Assembly: GCA_946540675.1 (NCBI GenBank)
Contig: CAMNIW010000003.1
Coordinates: 1-34,013 of the forward strand
Direction: 5' to 3'
Source of the DNA: an uncultured Clostridia bacterium
GTDB lineage: Bacteria; Bacillota; Clostridia; Christensenellales; Borkfalkiaceae
DNA: 34,013 nucleotides
In this document: in pieces, positions 1 to 34,013 of the stretch
Layout of the letters: each line of letters starts with the position of its first letter
How positions within the stretch are numbered: the first letter of the stretch is position 1
Position numbers and translations under genes: made by a program
The notes under the pieces: generated by a model
Told to the model about the DNA's origin: nothing
What the model saw: the letters and a program-made list of their open reading frames with translations, nothing else
Database searches by the model: none

Positions 1-126
1 TCACAAACGCACCAAACGCCAAAGTACGCGCCGACGTACCACGGGTAAAAGTTGCAAACCACGGCACGGTCGCCGTCGCGGACGCCGTCGCTCCAATACC
101 CGCCGCAAATGAACGCGTGAAGCGCG
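1..126 (-). repeat. DGR variable repeat (VR), left-end copy
   Basis: Aligns without gaps to 33215-33340. 13 mismatches, every one at a T on the + strand of the TR (A on the coding strand). Confidence 0.93.
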
Positions 127-1103
127 GTTGCGCTTGGAATATATGCGTCGCCGTGTCCGCTGCCTAAAACGTCCTGCCACGCCCACGCGGACGCCGTAGG
201 ATCAAGGCAAAATTCGTCTACCCATTTCCAAACGTTACCCACAAGATCGCGGATATTAACCGCCGAAACCGCGTAAGTCACATTGCCGCAAAGTGTACGG
301 GCGGTGTTTCCGGTTGCGCTCCATGCGTAAGTATTGTTGTTATCCTGCCCCTCGGGAGATCCGAAAGCGGCTTGACAAAACTCCGCGTAAGTTGGTAAAC
401 GCTTACCGACGCGGCGGGCTTTCTCGTTGGCAATGTACCAATCAAGCCCCTCTGTTCCGGTAATAGGGTTTGCGCCCTTGACGGTAGCCAATCCGCCGTC
501 GCCGTCGTCTGATGAAAGGTAAATGTCGCCCCAAAGTCCATTACCGATATAAACCATTCCGGCGGGGTCGCACTTCGGACGGAATAAAAGCGTCCATACG
601 GAGTTAGGAACAACGCCGTTATAAACGTTTGATTGCCAACCGCTGCCGTTCTCTACGCCGGAAGCATTGACCGGAATACCTGCGTCGCTAACCTTTCTTA
701 CTACGCCGTAATGGAAACCACCGATACGGCGGGAATTTGCGGCGGTGTAACCGCTTGGAAACGCTACGGAAGTCGAAATCTTGTAAATTTCGTTCTGATC
801 CACGGTTTCGTCGCCGTTTGTAGGGTCACAAATGAAAATATTGTAATCTGTACCAACGGTAAACGCTGCCCCGCTATCAAGGTCGGCGGGTGTAAGTGTT
901 GCCGCGGTTGTCTTAAAGATCGAAGATCCTACGGCGATAAGAAGATCGCCCATAACTTCGATTTCGTCCGGCGCGTCTTCGCCTGCTGCATAGATAAACG
1001 CTTTTTCCCTTGCTACAATGTCGCCCATTGTGGCAAGTTTGGCGGTTGTAATCTTTGCTTTTGCGCTCTGCATTGACTCGTCGTAAAGAAAAAACTTTGC
1101 CAT
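1..1103 (-). CDS. DGR target protein (FGE-sulfatase/C-type-lectin-like, putative tail tip/receptor-binding protein), truncated at the window edge
   Basis: In-frame read from ATG at 1103: MAKFFLYDESMQSAKAKITTAKLATMGDIVAREKAFIYAAGEDAPDEIEV...NSRRIGGFHYGVV...GLDWYIANEKARRVGKRLPTYAEFCQAAFGSPEG...NIRDLVGNVWKWVDEFCLD...ALHAFICGGYWSDGVRDGDRAVVCNFYPWYVGAYFGVWCVCD. No stop before position 1, so absent from the ORF track. C-terminal GG-W..GV..GDRAV.C...PW..G.W pattern is typical of DGR variable lectin folds. Confidence 0.9.
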   Translation of the reverse strand, partial: MAKFFLYDESMQSAKAKITTAKLATMGDIVAREKAFIYAAGEDAPDEIEVMGDLLIAVGSSIFKTTAATLTPADLDSGAAFTVGTDYNIFICDPTNGDETVDQNEIYKISTSVAFPSGYTAANSRRIGGFHYGVVRKVSDAGIPVNASGVENGSGWQSNVYNGVVPNSVWTLLFRPKCDPAGMVYIGNGLWGDIYLSSDDGDGGLATVKGANPITGTEGLDWYIANEKARRVGKRLPTYAEFCQAAFGSPEGQDNNNTYAWSATGNTARTLCGNVTYAVSAVNIRDLVGNVWKWVDEFCLDPTASAWAWQDVLGSGHGDAYIPSATALHAFICGGYWSDGVRDGDRAVVCNFYPWYVGAYFGVWCVC

Positions 1104-4603: not shown

Positions 4604-7594
4604 TTACCCCTTTTGTAATGCTAAAACCATGTTTCGGGTTTGGTTTCTTGTCTGTCTGCCTACCTCATAAGGCGATAAGGCTTTCGGACTCTGAATATAA
4701 TTGTTTTGTATGAAATCGCCGCGCCCGCCTGCTGCCTGCTGCAATGTGTCGGATCTGTTCTTGTCCGAAAGCGGCGTTACGATTGCGCGCCCGTTTGCTA
4801 CGGTCAAAAGTTCCGCGCCTGCTTCTCCGACGATTGCTTGACCTTTTGAAAGGACGCCGCCTTTCGCAAGTCTTGGAAGTGATATTCTTGATAAACTGCC
4901 GATTGAAACCCCGGGTATTTCGTTTATGACTCCGATAACGCCGTTTATAGCATTTACGAAGCCGTTTACAATATTTTCGATTGTTCCGAATACTGAATTA
5001 CAAGCGGACTTAAACGCGCCCATAACTCCGTCGGCGACTTTCTGCCCTGCGTCCTTAAAGATCCCCGTTATCTTATTCCAAAGATCCGTAAAGAATTGCG
5101 GTATTGCTGAAAAGGCGTTTTTAATTGCCTGCGCCGCCGCGTTGAATTTCTCCGAAAAGAACGTTGCCACGTTTGCGAATACGTTCTTTATATCCGTCCA
5201 ACGTGCCGAAAACCATTGTCCGATCCCTTTGAAGATATTAACAATGTTGTTGTAAGCATTGCTAAACATTGTTTGAAACCATGTTGCAACGGTTGATAAA
5301 GCGTTCTTTATGTCCGTCCAACGTGCGGCGAACCATTGCCCGATCGCCTTAAATACGTTTACAACGTTGTTATAGGCATTTTGAAACATAGTTAAAAACC
5401 ATGTTGCAACCGTTGATAAAGCGTTCTTTATGTCCGTCCAACGTGCGGCGAACCATTGCCCGATTGACATAAACGCATTTACGATATTGTTATAAGCGTT
5501 TGTAAACATAGTCCCGAACCACGTTGCGACCGTTGAAAAGATATTCTTTACGGTCGTCCAAACGCCGGAAAAGAACGTCGAAAGGAACGAAGCCCACGCG
5601 TTCAATATGTTTGTAATGAAACCTACGACGTTTTGCCACGCTGCCTTGATGTAAGTAAAGAAGCCGTCGAAATCGCCGTGAAGCAATGCGACAAGGGCGT
5701 TTATAATGTTCGTTACAAACTGAACGACGTTTGTTACCGCTGCAATAATGCTTGGAACGGCTGCCATTATGCCTTGTAATAATCTTTGAATGTAATTGAT
5801 CCATAATTCAAAGATAGGTTGTAACGCCTGCATAAGACTATCAAACGCCGCCTTTAGGTTTTCAAGAAGTGGTTTAATTGCTTCTACTAACTGATTAAAC
5901 GCCGTCTTGATCTGCTCCCACGCTGCGTTTACTTTATTTCTAAAATCTTCGTTTGTTTTATAAAAATACACAAACGCCGCAACTAACGCCGCTATTGCTG
6001 CAATAACTAAACCCACGGGCGAAGTTAAAGCGGCGATCGCGCCCTTTACTCCCCCGACTTTCGTTATTAGTCCGCCGAATTTTGTAACCAAACCGCCAAC
6101 GCCGGACGTTAGTTTTCCGAATATGGTTAAGGCGGGCGCAAGTGAAGCGACAAGCAATAAGATCTTGCCGATAAGGGCTTTTGTGTTTCCGTCTAAATTC
6201 TTAAACCATGTTGAAAACTGTTTGATTTTCTCCACGATTGAAGAAATTACGGGTTGAAGCGACGCCAATAGTTCGCCCGCAAGTTCTGATCCTGCAAGTT
6301 TCAAATTATTAAGGGCGACTTTTGCTTCGTCCCACGGATCAAGGGTTGCGTTAAATGTATCTTCAACGGTTGATCCGTAATCACTTAACGACGTTGTGAG
6401 ATCTTCAAGGGAAAAACGACCCTCGCGGATCGCCTGCGTCATTTCTGCCGCGCCTTTCTTGCCGAATAATTCCGTCGCGATCTGCAACGCTTCCGTTTCG
6501 CTTCCTGCGCTTTTGATCTTCTCTATGTTTTCGCCCAACGCTTCGTCAAGGGTCTTTCCCTCGGCGGTTGCGTTCTGCTGCGCTTTCTTTAAGGCTGCAA
6601 GGGCGGTCGCGCTATCAACGCCGGACGACTCGAATTGCGCAAGAAGATTTACGCTTTCGGTAAGCCCTAACCCCATTTCTTTAAGGGTTGCGCCGTTTGT
6701 CTGCAAGGCGGTTTCTAACGTTTCCATTGAAACGCCCGTGTCCTGCCCTGCTTTTGTCATAAGTCCTAAAACGTTCTTTGTTTCGCTGCTATCAACGCCG
6801 AATTTTTTCATAATGCTATCGACGCTATCAATAGCCCCGTTTAAGTCCGTCCCGTTGATCTCTGCAAACCGGATAAAGTCTTTTGAAAGATCCGTTAAAG
6901 TCTTCCCCGTTACTCCAAAGCGGGTGTTTACTTCTCCGACCGCCGTTCCTGCGTCTGCTGCCGTCGTCGGCAAGTTCGTAAATACGTCGTCCACGCTATC
7001 TTTAAGCCCGTCCAACGCTTCGCCCGTTGCTCCGGTCTTTGTAATAACGGTGTCGTAACCCTCGTCAAGTTCCATTGCGGAATGAACCGCCGCCGCGCCC
7101 ACGGCTGCCGCTGCTGCCGATAAAGGCGCAAGGGCTTTTCCCGCTGCCTGCATTTTGTCGCCTGCTGCCGAAATCTTGCCGCCTGCCGTTTCAAACTTTT
7201 GTCCTAACGTTTCGGCGTCTTTCTGCGTGTTCTGTAATTCCGTTTCAAGGCTTTTTAATTCTGTTTCGGTCTTGATGATCTCGGTTTCTAACGCGCGGTA
7301 TTTGTCTTCGCCCATTTCGCCGCGCTCGAACGCTTCGCGCGCCTGCTCCTGCGCCGTTTTAAGGGTGTCTAACTTCTCTTTTGTATTCGATACCGCTTGT
7401 TGTAATAACTCTTGCTTTTTGGCGGTAAGTTCTACGTTTTTCGGGTCAAGTTTAAGGGCATTATTTACCGCCTTTAATTCGTTTTGTAACGATTTCGCGG
7501 TTGAATTAACCCCCTTTAATGCTTGATCTAACTTTTGTGTAGATCCCCCGATTTCTATTGTGATACCCTTAATGTTATTTGCCATATTTCGCAC
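4604..7594 (-). CDS. Tape measure protein
   Basis: 996 aa; N-terminal coiled coil, TP901-type core, TM segments, internal ~40-aa W-rich repeats. Likely start ATG at 7585. Confidence 0.93.
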   Translation of the reverse strand: MRNMANNIKGITIEIGGSTQKLDQALKGVNSTAKSLQNELKAVNNALKLDPKNVELTAKKQELLQQAVSNTKEKLDTLKTAQEQAREAFERGEMGEDKYRALETEIIKTETELKSLETELQNTQKDAETLGQKFETAGGKISAAGDKMQAAGKALAPLSAAAAAVGAAAVHSAMELDEGYDTVITKTGATGEALDGLKDSVDDVFTNLPTTAADAGTAVGEVNTRFGVTGKTLTDLSKDFIRFAEINGTDLNGAIDSVDSIMKKFGVDSSETKNVLGLMTKAGQDTGVSMETLETALQTNGATLKEMGLGLTESVNLLAQFESSGVDSATALAALKKAQQNATAEGKTLDEALGENIEKIKSAGSETEALQIATELFGKKGAAEMTQAIREGRFSLEDLTTSLSDYGSTVEDTFNATLDPWDEAKVALNNLKLAGSELAGELLASLQPVISSIVEKIKQFSTWFKNLDGNTKALIGKILLLVASLAPALTIFGKLTSGVGGLVTKFGGLITKVGGVKGAIAALTSPVGLVIAAIAALVAAFVYFYKTNEDFRNKVNAAWEQIKTAFNQLVEAIKPLLENLKAAFDSLMQALQPIFELWINYIQRLLQGIMAAVPSIIAAVTNVVQFVTNIINALVALLHGDFDGFFTYIKAAWQNVVGFITNILNAWASFLSTFFSGVWTTVKNIFSTVATWFGTMFTNAYNNIVNAFMSIGQWFAARWTDIKNALSTVATWFLTMFQNAYNNVVNVFKAIGQWFAARWTDIKNALSTVATWFQTMFSNAYNNIVNIFKGIGQWFSARWTDIKNVFANVATFFSEKFNAAAQAIKNAFSAIPQFFTDLWNKITGIFKDAGQKVADGVMGAFKSACNSVFGTIENIVNGFVNAINGVIGVINEIPGVSIGSLSRISLPRLAKGGVLSKGQAIVGEAGAELLTVANGRAIVTPLSDKNRSDTLQQAAGGRGDFIQNNYIQSPKALSPYEVGRQTRNQTRNMVLALQKG
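5161..5640 (-). repeat. 120-bp in-frame tandem repeats in the tape measure gene (~4 units)
   Basis: acgttgc-ac...cgtccaacgtgc blocks recur at 5161, 5281, 5401 and 5521; protein unit ...NAYNNIVNxFxxIGQWFAARWTDIKNALSTVATWF... Confidence 0.85.
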
Positions 7595-18349: not shown

Positions 18350-19210
18350 TCAATCCCGAACCATTCGGGCGTATATATAAAACCCGCCATTGATTTCGTT
18401 TTGATAAACTTTAGCGTCTACAAATCGGGTGTTTTTATATTTCTTCTTCAACTCCGTTTCAAGCAACACATAATCGCAAGCCATTTTACGGACTTTGTTT
18501 TTCCCAAACTTGCTATATGATCTTGTGATCGTCGGTTTCTTTAACCCTTTCGACGTCTTCCAACGTTTCTTACCTTTCGGGTCTTTCGTGATGTAATTTA
18601 CAAGTCCGGCGATATGTGTATCGGGATCGGGTGCAAGTCGTTTTGTTTCTGTCCGGTCGCCGTGATACCATAATTGTTCTATTTCGTCGCGGTCAACGTC
18701 CCCGCTTATGATCGCGTGGTGGTGGCAGCGAATACCCTTGTCCGGTTCGTTGCTCCATTCCGTGACGTAGATATATTTAATATTTTCTTTGCCTGCTCTT
18801 TTTCTCCTGCGGTTGATCCGGCGTATAAAGTTACCGAATTTCTTTTCGGCGTCTTCTACGCTTTCCGGTTCTTCGCCTGCTCTATAAGTGAACGTCCCCC
18901 ACAAATCGCCCTTGCCAAAATTTGCGCTTGCTAATTGGTTTAAATATCTTCGCGCCCTTTTGTCGTTAAGGTTCTTTTGTGTTGGTCTGCTTTCTCTCTT
19001 TCTTTTCGTTCGGGGCATATCGTGACGAACGTTAAAGGTCGGGTAAATATCAACTTCGATCATTTTCCCCGCTTCGGTTGTCGTTGTCCTATATCCTGCC
19101 CCCTTGCCTTTCTTTGCGATCCTCTCCGCTTCCGCTTCTTCCAACTTCTCTATTTGCTCGTTGTATGCTTCTTCGTAATCGTAATCGTCATAATACTTTT
19201 TTCTTCTCAC
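18350..19210 (-). CDS. Rolling-circle-type replication initiator (HUH endonuclease Rep)
   Basis: GTFTYRAG (motif I-like), IRCHHHAIISGD (HUH), HIAGLVNYITKD (catalytic Tyr motif). Confidence 0.78.
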   Translation of the reverse strand: MRRKKYYDDYDYEEAYNEQIEKLEEAEAERIAKKGKGAGYRTTTTEAGKMIEVDIYPTFNVRHDMPRTKRKRESRPTQKNLNDKRARRYLNQLASANFGKGDLWGTFTYRAGEEPESVEDAEKKFGNFIRRINRRRKRAGKENIKYIYVTEWSNEPDKGIRCHHHAIISGDVDRDEIEQLWYHGDRTETKRLAPDPDTHIAGLVNYITKDPKGKKRWKTSKGLKKPTITRSYSKFGKNKVRKMACDYVLLETELKKKYKNTRFVDAKVYQNEINGGFYIYARMVRD

Positions 19211-25908: not shown

Positions 25909-27630
25909 ATGAAAAATAAGGCGGGAAACGATAGCCGGATCACGGCGTTATATGTCCGTGTTTCAACGGGTTATCAGATAGACAAAGACTCTTTGCCATT
26001 TCAAAAGAAAGAATTAAAAAACTATTGTGTTCACGTCCTACATATTCCGCCGGACGAAATAGAAATCTACGAAGACGCGGGCAAGTCGGGAAAGAATACC
26101 GACCGCCCCGCCTTTCAAAGAATGATGAAAAAGGTTAAAGCCGGAAGCGTTGCGCGGGTTGTTGTTTATAAGATTGACCGTATAAGCCGAAATCTTGTTG
26201 ACTTCTCTTTGATGTATGACGCTTTTAAAGATAACCGGACGACGTTTATATCACTAAACGAACAATTCGACACGTCAAGCGCAATCGGCGAAGCCGTCCT
26301 TAAAATTATCCTTGTTTTTGCTGAATTAGAAAGAAAACTTACAAGCGAACGTGTAACGGGTGTTATGATCGGGCGCGCGCAAGAATGTAAATGGAACGGG
26401 GCGCGCGTTCCTTACGGTTGGGCGTGGGACGAAGCAAGCGAAAAGCCCGTCCATGATCCAAAAGAAGCCGAAATCGTCAAGCGTATTTATGAAATGTACG
26501 ACGAAAGCCATTCGACAAGCGTTGTTCGTGATTATCTGAATAATAACGATATACCAACGAAGCGGGGCGGATATTGGACGACTAAAACCGTCGGCGATAT
26601 TCTCCACAATCCGATCAACCGCGGCGATTATAGATATAATTATCGTCAAAGCGCGCGCGGGAAGAAGAAACCGGAAGAAGAAGTCGTTTATATTAAAGAC
26701 GTCTTCCCGCCGATTGTGTCCGGTGAATTGTTCGACCGTGTCGAAAAGCAAATGTCCGCAAATTATACCGCCCGCCATTTGAACGGATCGACACATAAAA
26801 GACGTTATGCGCACGTTTTCGCGGGTCTTTTGGTCTGCTGCGATTGTGGGGCGTTCTTTCAATGTGTGGGCGCGGATAAAACCCGCCTAAATGGTTTTAA
26901 GCCGTCATATTATCGTTGTTATACAAGGACGCAAAAACGGGCGTGTTCTGCTGCAAATACAAGCGATATTGTTGTCGGGTCGTTCGTGTTCAATTTTGTT
27001 TCTAATCTGATCGGTGTTTCTAACGACCGCCGGAAGATCTGCAACGCGGGAATTGAAGAAGTCGAAAGGCGGCTTTTAAGCGGCGATCCGTTTTTGGATA
27101 TTGCCGCGATTGATAGCGGATCACTTCGTCAAATATTCGACGCCCTGCGGGGTGTTTCTCGGTCTGCTTCCTCATATATTCCCGCCCCGCTGCCCCAAAG
27201 CAAAGAAAAGGGCGCGTCTATTGCTGCAAAGCGTAAAGAAGCGGACAAAATAACCCGGGCTATGGAACGACTTAAAAAGGCGTATTTATTTGACGACGAA
27301 GCAATGGACGAAAGGGAATATTTAACAACGCGGGCAAGCCTTGAAGAAGATTTGACCCGCCTTAATAACGAAATAGCGGACGCGGAAGAAGCGGCGTTTA
27401 ATGATGTTTCGGAATTATCTTTCGTGCAATCTGCAAGCGAATTTCTTTTGTCGTATAAGATCCAATCCGGCGAACCGATTGTTTATAGTGATTTCGCCCC
27501 GATCGTAGGCAATGAAACGCTAAAGAAATTTGTAAACGTGATAATAGAAAAGATCGAGATTAAAAACGGGCGCGTTGCTTCTATACTTTTCAAAAACGGA
27601 CTTGAAGCACGATTTATATATAAAGTGTAG
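25909..27630 (+). CDS. Large serine recombinase / phage integrase
   Basis: ALYVRVSTGYQIDKDSLPFQKKELKNY N-terminal resolvase domain; recombinase and zinc-ribbon regions (GLLVCCDCGAFFQC...YYRCYTRTQKRAC). Confidence 0.95.
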   Translation: MKNKAGNDSRITALYVRVSTGYQIDKDSLPFQKKELKNYCVHVLHIPPDEIEIYEDAGKSGKNTDRPAFQRMMKKVKAGSVARVVVYKIDRISRNLVDFSLMYDAFKDNRTTFISLNEQFDTSSAIGEAVLKIILVFAELERKLTSERVTGVMIGRAQECKWNGARVPYGWAWDEASEKPVHDPKEAEIVKRIYEMYDESHSTSVVRDYLNNNDIPTKRGGYWTTKTVGDILHNPINRGDYRYNYRQSARGKKKPEEEVVYIKDVFPPIVSGELFDRVEKQMSANYTARHLNGSTHKRRYAHVFAGLLVCCDCGAFFQCVGADKTRLNGFKPSYYRCYTRTQKRACSAANTSDIVVGSFVFNFVSNLIGVSNDRRKICNAGIEEVERRLLSGDPFLDIAAIDSGSLRQIFDALRGVSRSASSYIPAPLPQSKEKGASIAAKRKEADKITRAMERLKKAYLFDDEAMDEREYLTTRASLEEDLTRLNNEIADAEEAAFNDVSELSFVQSASEFLLSYKIQSGEPIVYSDFAPIVGNETLKKFVNVIIEKIEIKNGRVASILFKNGLEARFIYKV

Positions 27631-28885: not shown

Positions 28886-29101
28886 TTACGCCGTTTGTGG
28901 CGTCTGTGATACTACGTTCATTTGACAACCGAAAGTTACAGTATGACAGAAAAGCGGGCGTCCTAATTCCTCGGATCTTTTCTTTACGATCTCGCGTGCT
29001 TTCTTTATGAAATAATATTGTCTTGCGGGTTCTTCCGTTGGTGGTTCTTTCGTCGTGTCTATTCCTGCAAGGATCTTTTCTATATCGTCGTTATAATTCA
29101 T
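28886..29101 (-). CDS. Hypothetical protein
   Basis: 71 aa ORF. Confidence 0.4.
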   Translation of the reverse strand: MNYNDDIEKILAGIDTTKEPPTEEPARQYYFIKKAREIVKKRSEELGRPLFCHTVTFGCQMNVVSQTPQTA

Positions 29102-31952: not shown

Positions 31953-33008
31953 TTACTCACATATTACACAATCAAAACGCCCGTTTGTTATTAGTTTCAC
32001 TCGGTCGATTTCTGCCCGTAGTTCCTCGCATAATTTGAACGTGTCGGCGTGTCGCGCGTGTCCGATCCGGCTTTCGATAGAACGGTCGAAAAGTTCTTCG
32101 TCAACTTCTCCGGTTTCAAATGCCCTTAATAATTTCTTGATCCTGCGGGTTGCCTGCTTGCGAAGCGTTATAAACGCCGGAAAGTGTCTATATCCTACGA
32201 AATCAACGCCGTTTTTCGCTGCAAGGATCGTTGTTTTCGGGTTTAATGCTAAATGTAAGCGTTCATTTACAAACTTTTCGATCTTTTCCAAAATCTCGCG
32301 AAGTTCTGCCGGATCTTCGCCCAAAATAATAAAGTCGTCCATATACCGGATATAATAACGGACGCCTAAATCGTGCTTGATGTAATGATCTAATATGTTC
32401 AAATATACGTTTGCGAATAGTTGGGACGTTAGATTTCCGACCGGAATACCTACGCCGTCGGGATAAATGCCGTTGTGGTCTATAATGTGATCTAATATTT
32501 TCAAAACGTCTTTGTCGGATATATAACGCCGGATCTCCGCTTTTAAGATTTCGTGATCTATGCTTTGAAAATAATGGTGTATATCGGCTTTAATTGCGTA
32601 AATCTTCTTTCCCTGCTTTACTTGCATATTGTAAAGCCAACGCGAAAGAATTTTACTTGCTTCGTGTACGCCCTTTTCTTTCCTGCAAGCGTAAGAATGA
32701 AATATAAATCGCTTTTCAAAAATCGGTTCAATGATGTTTACGATCATGTGTTGGATTACTCGATCATAAAACGGCAACGCCATAATAAGGCGTTCTTTTG
32801 GCTCGAATACCTTAAAAACATAATACCGCCCCGCGTGATAAGTGCCGTTTCTAATATCCGCAATCGCTCTTAACAAGTTGATTTCGCGGTCGGCTTCAAA
32901 CCTTAACACTTCGGGACGGTATCTTTTACACTTTCGCGCCTTTTTATACGCCTTGATCGCGTTGTCTATGGTACAAATCGCGTCTAAAATGTGTTTTTCT
33001 GTTTTCAT
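31953..33008 (-). CDS. DGR reverse transcriptase
   Basis: 351 aa. Catalytic YIRYMDDFIILG; GIPVGNLTSQLFANVYLNILDHYIK is the GNxxSQ variant characteristic of DGR RTs. Adjacent to TR and Avd. Confidence 0.96.
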   Translation of the reverse strand: MKTEKHILDAICTIDNAIKAYKKARKCKRYRPEVLRFEADREINLLRAIADIRNGTYHAGRYYVFKVFEPKERLIMALPFYDRVIQHMIVNIIEPIFEKRFIFHSYACRKEKGVHEASKILSRWLYNMQVKQGKKIYAIKADIHHYFQSIDHEILKAEIRRYISDKDVLKILDHIIDHNGIYPDGVGIPVGNLTSQLFANVYLNILDHYIKHDLGVRYYIRYMDDFIILGEDPAELREILEKIEKFVNERLHLALNPKTTILAAKNGVDFVGYRHFPAFITLRKQATRRIKKLLRAFETGEVDEELFDRSIESRIGHARHADTFKLCEELRAEIDRVKLITNGRFDCVICE

Positions 33009-33090
33009 ATTCTTAAAAATTGTCCGTGTCGCGTTTCGCCCTGCGCCGTTTGCTATGGGTTACTTCTCGATCGGTTCTCTTTTATCTTTG

Positions 33091-33106
33091 TCCGGCAGCA
33101 GCCGGA
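33091..33106 (-). other. Hairpin in the TR-RT spacer
   Basis: tccggc-agca-gccgga: 6-bp perfect stem, 4-nt loop. Confidence 0.5.
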
Positions 33107-33212
33107 ACGGGAAGCGTTAAACGCTCTTTACAACCGTCTGACTCATTGTAAAAAGACTTTTACAAAAGCCCTTGCGACGCTTGCGGACAAGACGCCGTCT
33201 AAAAGTTCCAAA

Positions 33213-33340
33213 AGTCACAAACGCACCAAACGCCAATGTTCGCGTTGACGTTCCACGGGTAATTGTTGCAATTCACGGCACGGTCGCCGTCGTGGACGCC
33301 GTTGTTCCAATTCCCGCCGCAAATGAACGCGTGAAGCGCG
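33213..33340 (-). repeat. DGR template repeat (TR)
   Basis: Non-variable counterpart of both VR copies, between the avd-like ORF and RT. Coding read ALHAFICGGNWNNGVHDGDRAVNCNNYPWNVNANIGVWCVCD is rich in AAC/AAT codons, the usual substrate for adenine mutagenesis. Confidence 0.95.
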
Positions 33341-33402
33341 CGGAAATGCAACGCCCGACGATACGGTAATAACGGTTGCCCCAAAGTAAAAGGGCGGTCG
33401 CT

Positions 33403-33828
33403 TTACGCTCCGCCCTGCTTTTTCTCCTTTGCTTCTTTGATAAGTCCGCCGATTAAAGCCCCGATAATCGCGACTTGTGAAGCGCAATAAAACAAAACGT
33501 CTTCGTTTATCGCTGAATATTTAAGGTCGTAAGCAAGTCGTAATTTACGCATAAGCCGTCGTTTTGCACGATCCGCCGTGTAAAGGTGTGAAATAACTTT
33601 TGTTATTTCGTATTGCTCTATTTCGTCCAATATAAGGTCGATTGCTTCGCGGATCTCTTGTTGCAACGTAAACTTTTCGTAATGTGGTAACTTCTTCATT
33701 TTATCGTGAAGATATACGCTAAAATCATACGCCGCTTGATGTGCTTTTGTATGTGTATAGTCTGCCTTTGTATCTAATACGACTTGCGGCACGCTATATT
33801 TTGCTTCGTATTCTTTCGCGTTTTCCAT
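33403..33828 (-). CDS. avd: Avd-like DGR accessory variability determinant (helical-bundle protein)
   Basis: 141 aa, strongly helical. Motif LPHYEKFTLQQEIREAIDLILDEI is typical of Avd/four-helix-bundle proteins. Lies between the target gene 3' end and the TR. Confidence 0.8.
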   Translation of the reverse strand: MENAKEYEAKYSVPQVVLDTKADYTHTKAHQAAYDFSVYLHDKMKKLPHYEKFTLQQEIREAIDLILDEIEQYEITKVISHLYTADRAKRRLMRKLRLAYDLKYSAINEDVLFYCASQVAIIGALIGGLIKEAKEKKQGGA

Positions 33829-33864
33829 TTACGCCGCCTTGCCTTTCTTTAATCTTTGGAATAT

Positions 33865-33889
33865 AGGCGGTCGGCTTTCGCCGCCGCCT
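33865..33889 (-). promoter_or_regulatory. Hairpin/cruciform downstream of the VR (candidate DGR target-recognition structure)
   Basis: Coding strand AGGCGG-CGGC-GAAA-GCCG-A-CCGCCT: 6 bp + 4 bp stem, one bulge, GAAA loop, 15 nt past the VR 3' end. No U-tract follows. Confidence 0.7.
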
Positions 33890-33903
33890 TTCTGCTTACT
33901 GTG

Positions 33904-34013
33904 AGTCACAAACGCACCAAACGCCAACGGCCGCGTCGACGTACGACGGGAAATTGCTGCAACCCACGGCACGGTCGCCGTCGTGGACGCCGTTGTACCA
34001 ATGCCCGCCGCGA
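33904..34013 (-). repeat. DGR variable repeat (VR), right-end copy with the target-gene 3' end (stop TAA at 33896-33898)
   Basis: Aligns to the TR. 11 mismatches at TR T (+) positions plus 2 others (c>g, a>g). Minus-strand frame reads GHWYNGVHDGDRAVGCSNFPSYVDAAVGVWCVCDSQ*. Confidence 0.9.

Follow-up and report, generated by a model that had tools for sequence, protein, structure and literature searches.

Diversity-generating retroelements (DGRs) are widespread in phages, as documented by a large-scale metagenome catalogue, and they are recognized by near-identical template and variable repeats (TR and VR) in which at least 75% of the mismatches fall at template adenines (PMC8144416). In Bordetella phage BPP-1 the cassette is organized as mtd - avd - TR - brt, and VR forms part of the target gene at its 3' end; its hairpin/cruciform is needed for efficient homing and has the loop consensus GRNA (PMC3240598). 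A similar arrangement is found in Faecalibacterium phage FP_Lagaffe, where an Mtd-like target, an Avd-like protein, a reverse transcriptase (RT), small genes and an endolysin follow each other in the same order as in the locus described here. The DGR of Lagaffe_CP, a candidate prophage related to FP_Lagaffe, contains two VRs (PMC11792537), while the present one contains a single VR.

The DNA analysed here, hereafter the window, is a whole contig (C3) of 34013 bases, from a 1.54 Mb assembly of 246 contigs assigned to an uncultured Clostridia bacterium. It almost certainly contains a complete BPP-1-type DGR, carried by a temperate, siphophage-like phage of gut-type Clostridia whose circular genome was opened within VR, of which multiple alleles existed, and in which the VR of an Mtd-like tail gene would be rewritten from TR. 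The minus-strand order of VR-bearing target end, Avd, TR and RT, already recognized in a preliminary description of this DNA, was confirmed, and the RT is followed by small genes and by an endolysin-like protein. The locus resembles BPP-1 in gene order, in the position of VR at the target 3' end, in the presence of Avd, in the location of TR upstream of the RT, in the GC-rich hairpin with a GAAA loop after VR and in the Mtd-type target. It differs in its RT, which is just 37% identical to that of BPP-1, in its Clostridia host and in the flanking genes; moreover, the window phage has a serine integrase and a probable miaB attachment, whereas BPP-1 uses a tRNA-His site. The RT of FP_Lagaffe is 38% identical to the window RT and is found on another branch of the tree. 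Much closer relatives are present among IMG/VR phage contigs and prophages of Clostridia metagenome-assembled genomes (L006-L022, L086-L093), whose RTs are 54-100% identical to that of the window and which share the same cassette, an orthologous target and, where checked, the same hairpin; the genome plan is common to those nearest to the window, while VR sequences differ and the more distant members are found in Lachnospiraceae. The window DGR adds to a well-known kind and is unusual only in that one circular contig has a different VR allele at either end; it provides a well-supported Mtd-type DGR for temperate phages of uncultivated Clostridia.

Table 1. Position of the DGR components and of other phage features in the window
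Feature	Coordinates	Strand	Remarks
Mtd-like tail target	1103..1, on over the circle junction to the TAA stop at 33898-33896	minus	370 aa
VR allele 1, left contig end	1..126	minus	aligns with TR over 126 nt without gaps
VR allele 2, right contig end	33904..34013	minus	~110 nt, TR positions 19-128
GC-rich hairpin (homing hairpin/cruciform)	33865..33889	minus	GAAA loop; 14 nt downstream of VR
Avd	33403..33828	minus	141 aa
TR	33215..33340	minus	126 nt, 26 adenines, nine AAY codons
DGR reverse transcriptase	31953..33008	minus	351 aa; YMDD catalytic box and PVGNLTSQ motif 4
miaB (tRNA methylthiotransferase) 5' fragment	28886-29101	minus	71 aa, ends TFGCQMN; beside the serine integrase
Serine integrase	25909-27630	plus	opposite to the structural genes
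Phage replication initiation protein	18350-19210	minus	weak rolling-circle initiator match
Repeats in the tape measure gene	5150-5560		several offset matches with relatives, ~120-base spacing
Structural genes (terminase, portal, tape measure, Dit, minor tail)	rest of the window	minus	same strand as the DGR

The two ends of the contig belong together. The open reading frame that starts at 1103 runs past the left contig end, and in two related phages, L007 (RT 99% identical) and L009 (85%), a single intact target gene is found, which has an N-terminus like that of this reading frame and the C-terminus GVWCVCDSQ, exactly as at the right end of the window, with Avd directly next to it. Furthermore, the sequence is uninterrupted across the window junction in five of the six relatives compared, while the sixth (G006) starts just before VR. 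Given the undivided target gene of L007 and L009 and the contiguity of the relatives at the junction, the contig, as judged from these alignments, is a circular phage genome of ~33.9 kb opened within VR, and its ends represent two alleles of the same repeat. Closure of the circle gives a target of the same length as in L007. The split of the target gene between both ends and the circularity had not been noticed in the preliminary description. Its statement that all core parts are intact did not hold for the terminal region 31953-34013, which contains just the ~38 final target codons, and becomes correct once the contig is closed to a circle. Similarly, the gap-free 126-nt alignment of TR and VR that had been placed in this region is not found there, the partner of TR being window 126..1, at the opposite contig end.

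The differences between TR and the two VR copies are concentrated at adenines. All the 13 mismatches of the left copy fall at TR adenines (7 A>T and 6 A>G), with a hypergeometric probability of 6e-11 given 26 adenines in 126 positions. The right copy has, over a 108-nt overlap, 11 mismatches at adenines and two at other positions (T20C and G87C in TR numbering), so that the adenine-specific substitution proposed earlier is strict in the first allele and has two exceptions in the second; with 13/13 and 11/13, both copies exceed the 75% limit used for DGR recognition. Compared to each other, the two copies have 16 differences in the 108-nt overlap. Each AAY codon of TR can encode 15 residues, and a stop codon is impossible by any change of an adenine. 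A related observation was made in L007, where VR and its own TR (4976-5101 and 5668-5793) show six differences at positions other than adenine, some of which agree with the TR of L008; this pattern points to another TR as the source of homing, to recombination among phages or to a chimeric assembly. The non-adenine mismatches of the right-end copy, together with the six in L007, may stem from erroneous sequence at a contig end, from older homing with another TR as the source or from chimeric assembly.

The difference between the two copies, and the two non-adenine changes of the second one, could also be read as the presence of two target genes, one ending in the VR at 126..1 and another one ending at the right contig end, whose body is absent from the contig; indeed, Faecalibacterium phages include known cases of a DGR with two VRs (PMC11792537). 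This arrangement is very unlikely, since L007 and L009 have one target that combines the N-terminus at the left end of the window with the C-terminus at the right end, followed by Avd, and the L007 record, which is 97-98% identical to the window, is continuous through the junction. In addition, neither a second VR nor any other TR-like site was found elsewhere in the window or in the assembly. The two-gene arrangement was rejected because L007 and L009 each have one intact target and because the synteny of the relatives extends across the junction.

With one target gene on a circular genome, the presence of several VR alleles in the sampled population would have led the assembler to open the circle inside this repeat. 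It is fairly probable that the phage population was sampled while its DGR was diversifying the tail protein, that the VR alleles were too mixed for the assembler to close the circle, and that the contig ends are two live variants of one tail tip. Comparison of relatives revealed that VR can change while the rest of the locus does not. L006 is identical to the window over the DNA from Avd through the RT (1943/1943), yet it has a third VR allele; between L088 and L089, neither the target body (970/970 identical) nor TR differs, whereas VR has 15 differences in its 126 positions; in L090 and L092, bodies and TRs are again identical, and VRs have 10 differences. Across 24 relatives, 295 of 305 TR/VR mismatches fall at adenines, a count obtained with an aligner that mildly favoured such mismatches. 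Divergence confined to VR on identical backbones is the signature expected from recent DGR action, and these comparisons of contigs are pointing to such action in this group. A decayed and inactive DGR, which merely preserves past diversification, is a highly improbable alternative: decay does happen in the group, as indicated by a related RT with a YMDN box, but the parts of the window DGR are all open and intact, three VR alleles are found on near-identical backbones, and the relatives diverge in VR only. A clean natural test set is available in those orthologues whose backbones are identical but whose VRs differ. Moreover, a phage contig ending in overlapping, differing VR copies can be taken as a signature of DGR polymorphism, where annotators would otherwise see two truncated genes.

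The target of diversification is, according to profile comparisons, a full-length relative of Mtd, the tropism protein of BPP-1. It matches the Pfam family mtd_2nd (Mtd second domain) with an E-value of 8e-29, while a match to FGE-sulfatase is barely over its cut-off. A profile built from 24 target orthologues matches all solved Mtd variants at positions 46-371, including VR, with an E-value of 4e-31; this match over the whole VR domain places VR in the 3' end of a coding gene whose product is predicted to have a C-type-lectin-type domain. Structure prediction, which had been proposed for the target C-terminus, was less informative: the top five Foldseek matches of the AlphaFold model are all Mtd, in agreement with the profile, but they weigh little because the VR domain is modelled with low confidence, the mean pLDDT of the overall model being 58. 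Thus, the assignment of the lectin fold is derived from the sequence profile and not from the model.

The RT contains both the YMDD box and the GNxxSQ motif that had been described in it, the latter in the form PVGNLTSQ. It matches RVT_1 (E 2e-22) and the RT family of PHROG (E 6e-126), and its best PDB match is the DGR RT 8ub7_A (E 3e-60, 207 bits), followed by a match with 70 bits; group II and retron-type RTs are far behind in this search, at ~2e-18. The 8ub7 entry is presumably the BPP-1 DGR complex, as judged from its Avd chain. In a tree of 40 rows, the labelled DGR RTs, including BPP-1 brt, lie on one side of a branch with 100/99 support and the window RT is found among them; retrons (100/100) and group II introns (99/93) are both separate from the DGR RTs. 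A position outside the DGR clade had been named as the outcome that would argue against a DGR; the window RT falls inside, and it also has the [P][VI]GNxxSQ motif 4 and the YxDD box of these enzymes. There is practically no chance that the enzyme belongs to a group II intron, a retron or a defence system and lies near a chance repeat: NCBIfam models for group II, DRT and retron RTs do appear as matches, and PADLOC lists many RT/DRT models, but the NCBIfam scores are far under the cut-offs (132.8 of 300 bits for the group II model TIGR04416, 49 of 235 for retron St85 and 75 of 200 for Drt3a), the tree and the matches to solved structures place the enzyme with DGRs, and the adenine pattern of TR/VR mismatches is not due to chance. 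The group II intron and retron assignments were rejected on the basis of the tree and of the score cut-offs.

Other RTs were observed in related genomes. The DGR part of the tree also contains, at the ends of long branches, three divergent and unlabelled RTs that come from relatives of the host. Divergent RTs in other genomes of the host genus (G007:C27:64152-64625 and G016:C211:12569-13027), which lie in this part on long branches, have YMDD boxes and are devoid of GNxxSQ. The YMDN box mentioned above belongs to a related DGR RT (L014, 6001-7017), in which the catalytic Asp is replaced by Asn; the element has probably lost its activity, unless the change is an error of assembly.

Taken alone, the sequence of the accessory protein gives modest scores. 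Avd matches the PHROG family 'Avd protein of DGR' with an E-value of 1e-15 and lies below the curated cut-offs of NF033474 (NCBIfam) and bAvd (Pfam). A search of the PDB with the single sequence gave no match, and a family profile was required: the profile of 19 Avd orthologues identified the BPP-1 Avd 4dwl (E 1.3e-10) and 8ub7_B (E 1.2e-9), and hhalign between Avd and Bbp7 gave 97.6%, supporting their homology. Downstream of VR, the hairpin stem with its GAAA loop, which fits the GRNA consensus, is kept in all seven relatives that were folded, and BPP-1 has a GC-rich stem and a GAAA loop at the corresponding site. The DGR interpretation of the preliminary description is therefore borne out by the RT tree and structure match, the Avd profile, the adenine mismatches, the Mtd-type target and the homing hairpin.

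By analogy with BPP-1, the RT together with Avd would reverse transcribe the TR RNA and misincorporate nucleotides opposite template adenines. The cDNA would then replace VR, which lies in the Mtd-like tail gene at its 3' end, possibly with the GC-rich downstream hairpin as a guide. Up to 16 codons, mostly the nine AAY codons, could be varied in the putative C-terminal C-type-lectin-like domain, and this variation may alter receptor binding by the tail protein, a role proposed from that of BPP-1.

The window phage also carries a 5' fragment of a gene which we take to be miaB from recognition of its sequence. Titles and abstracts searched for integration into miaB by serine integrases yielded nothing directly relevant. 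In the relative G003 (L177 1-300; end of L178, G003:C1 36184-36437), which contains an apparently integrated prophage, the phage copy of miaB runs in frame into the host MiaB at one end, and at the other end the N-terminus of the host MiaB is truncated at the same codons. Because of these junctions at both ends, the phage probably integrates into the host miaB gene, with its own copy restoring the 5' part.
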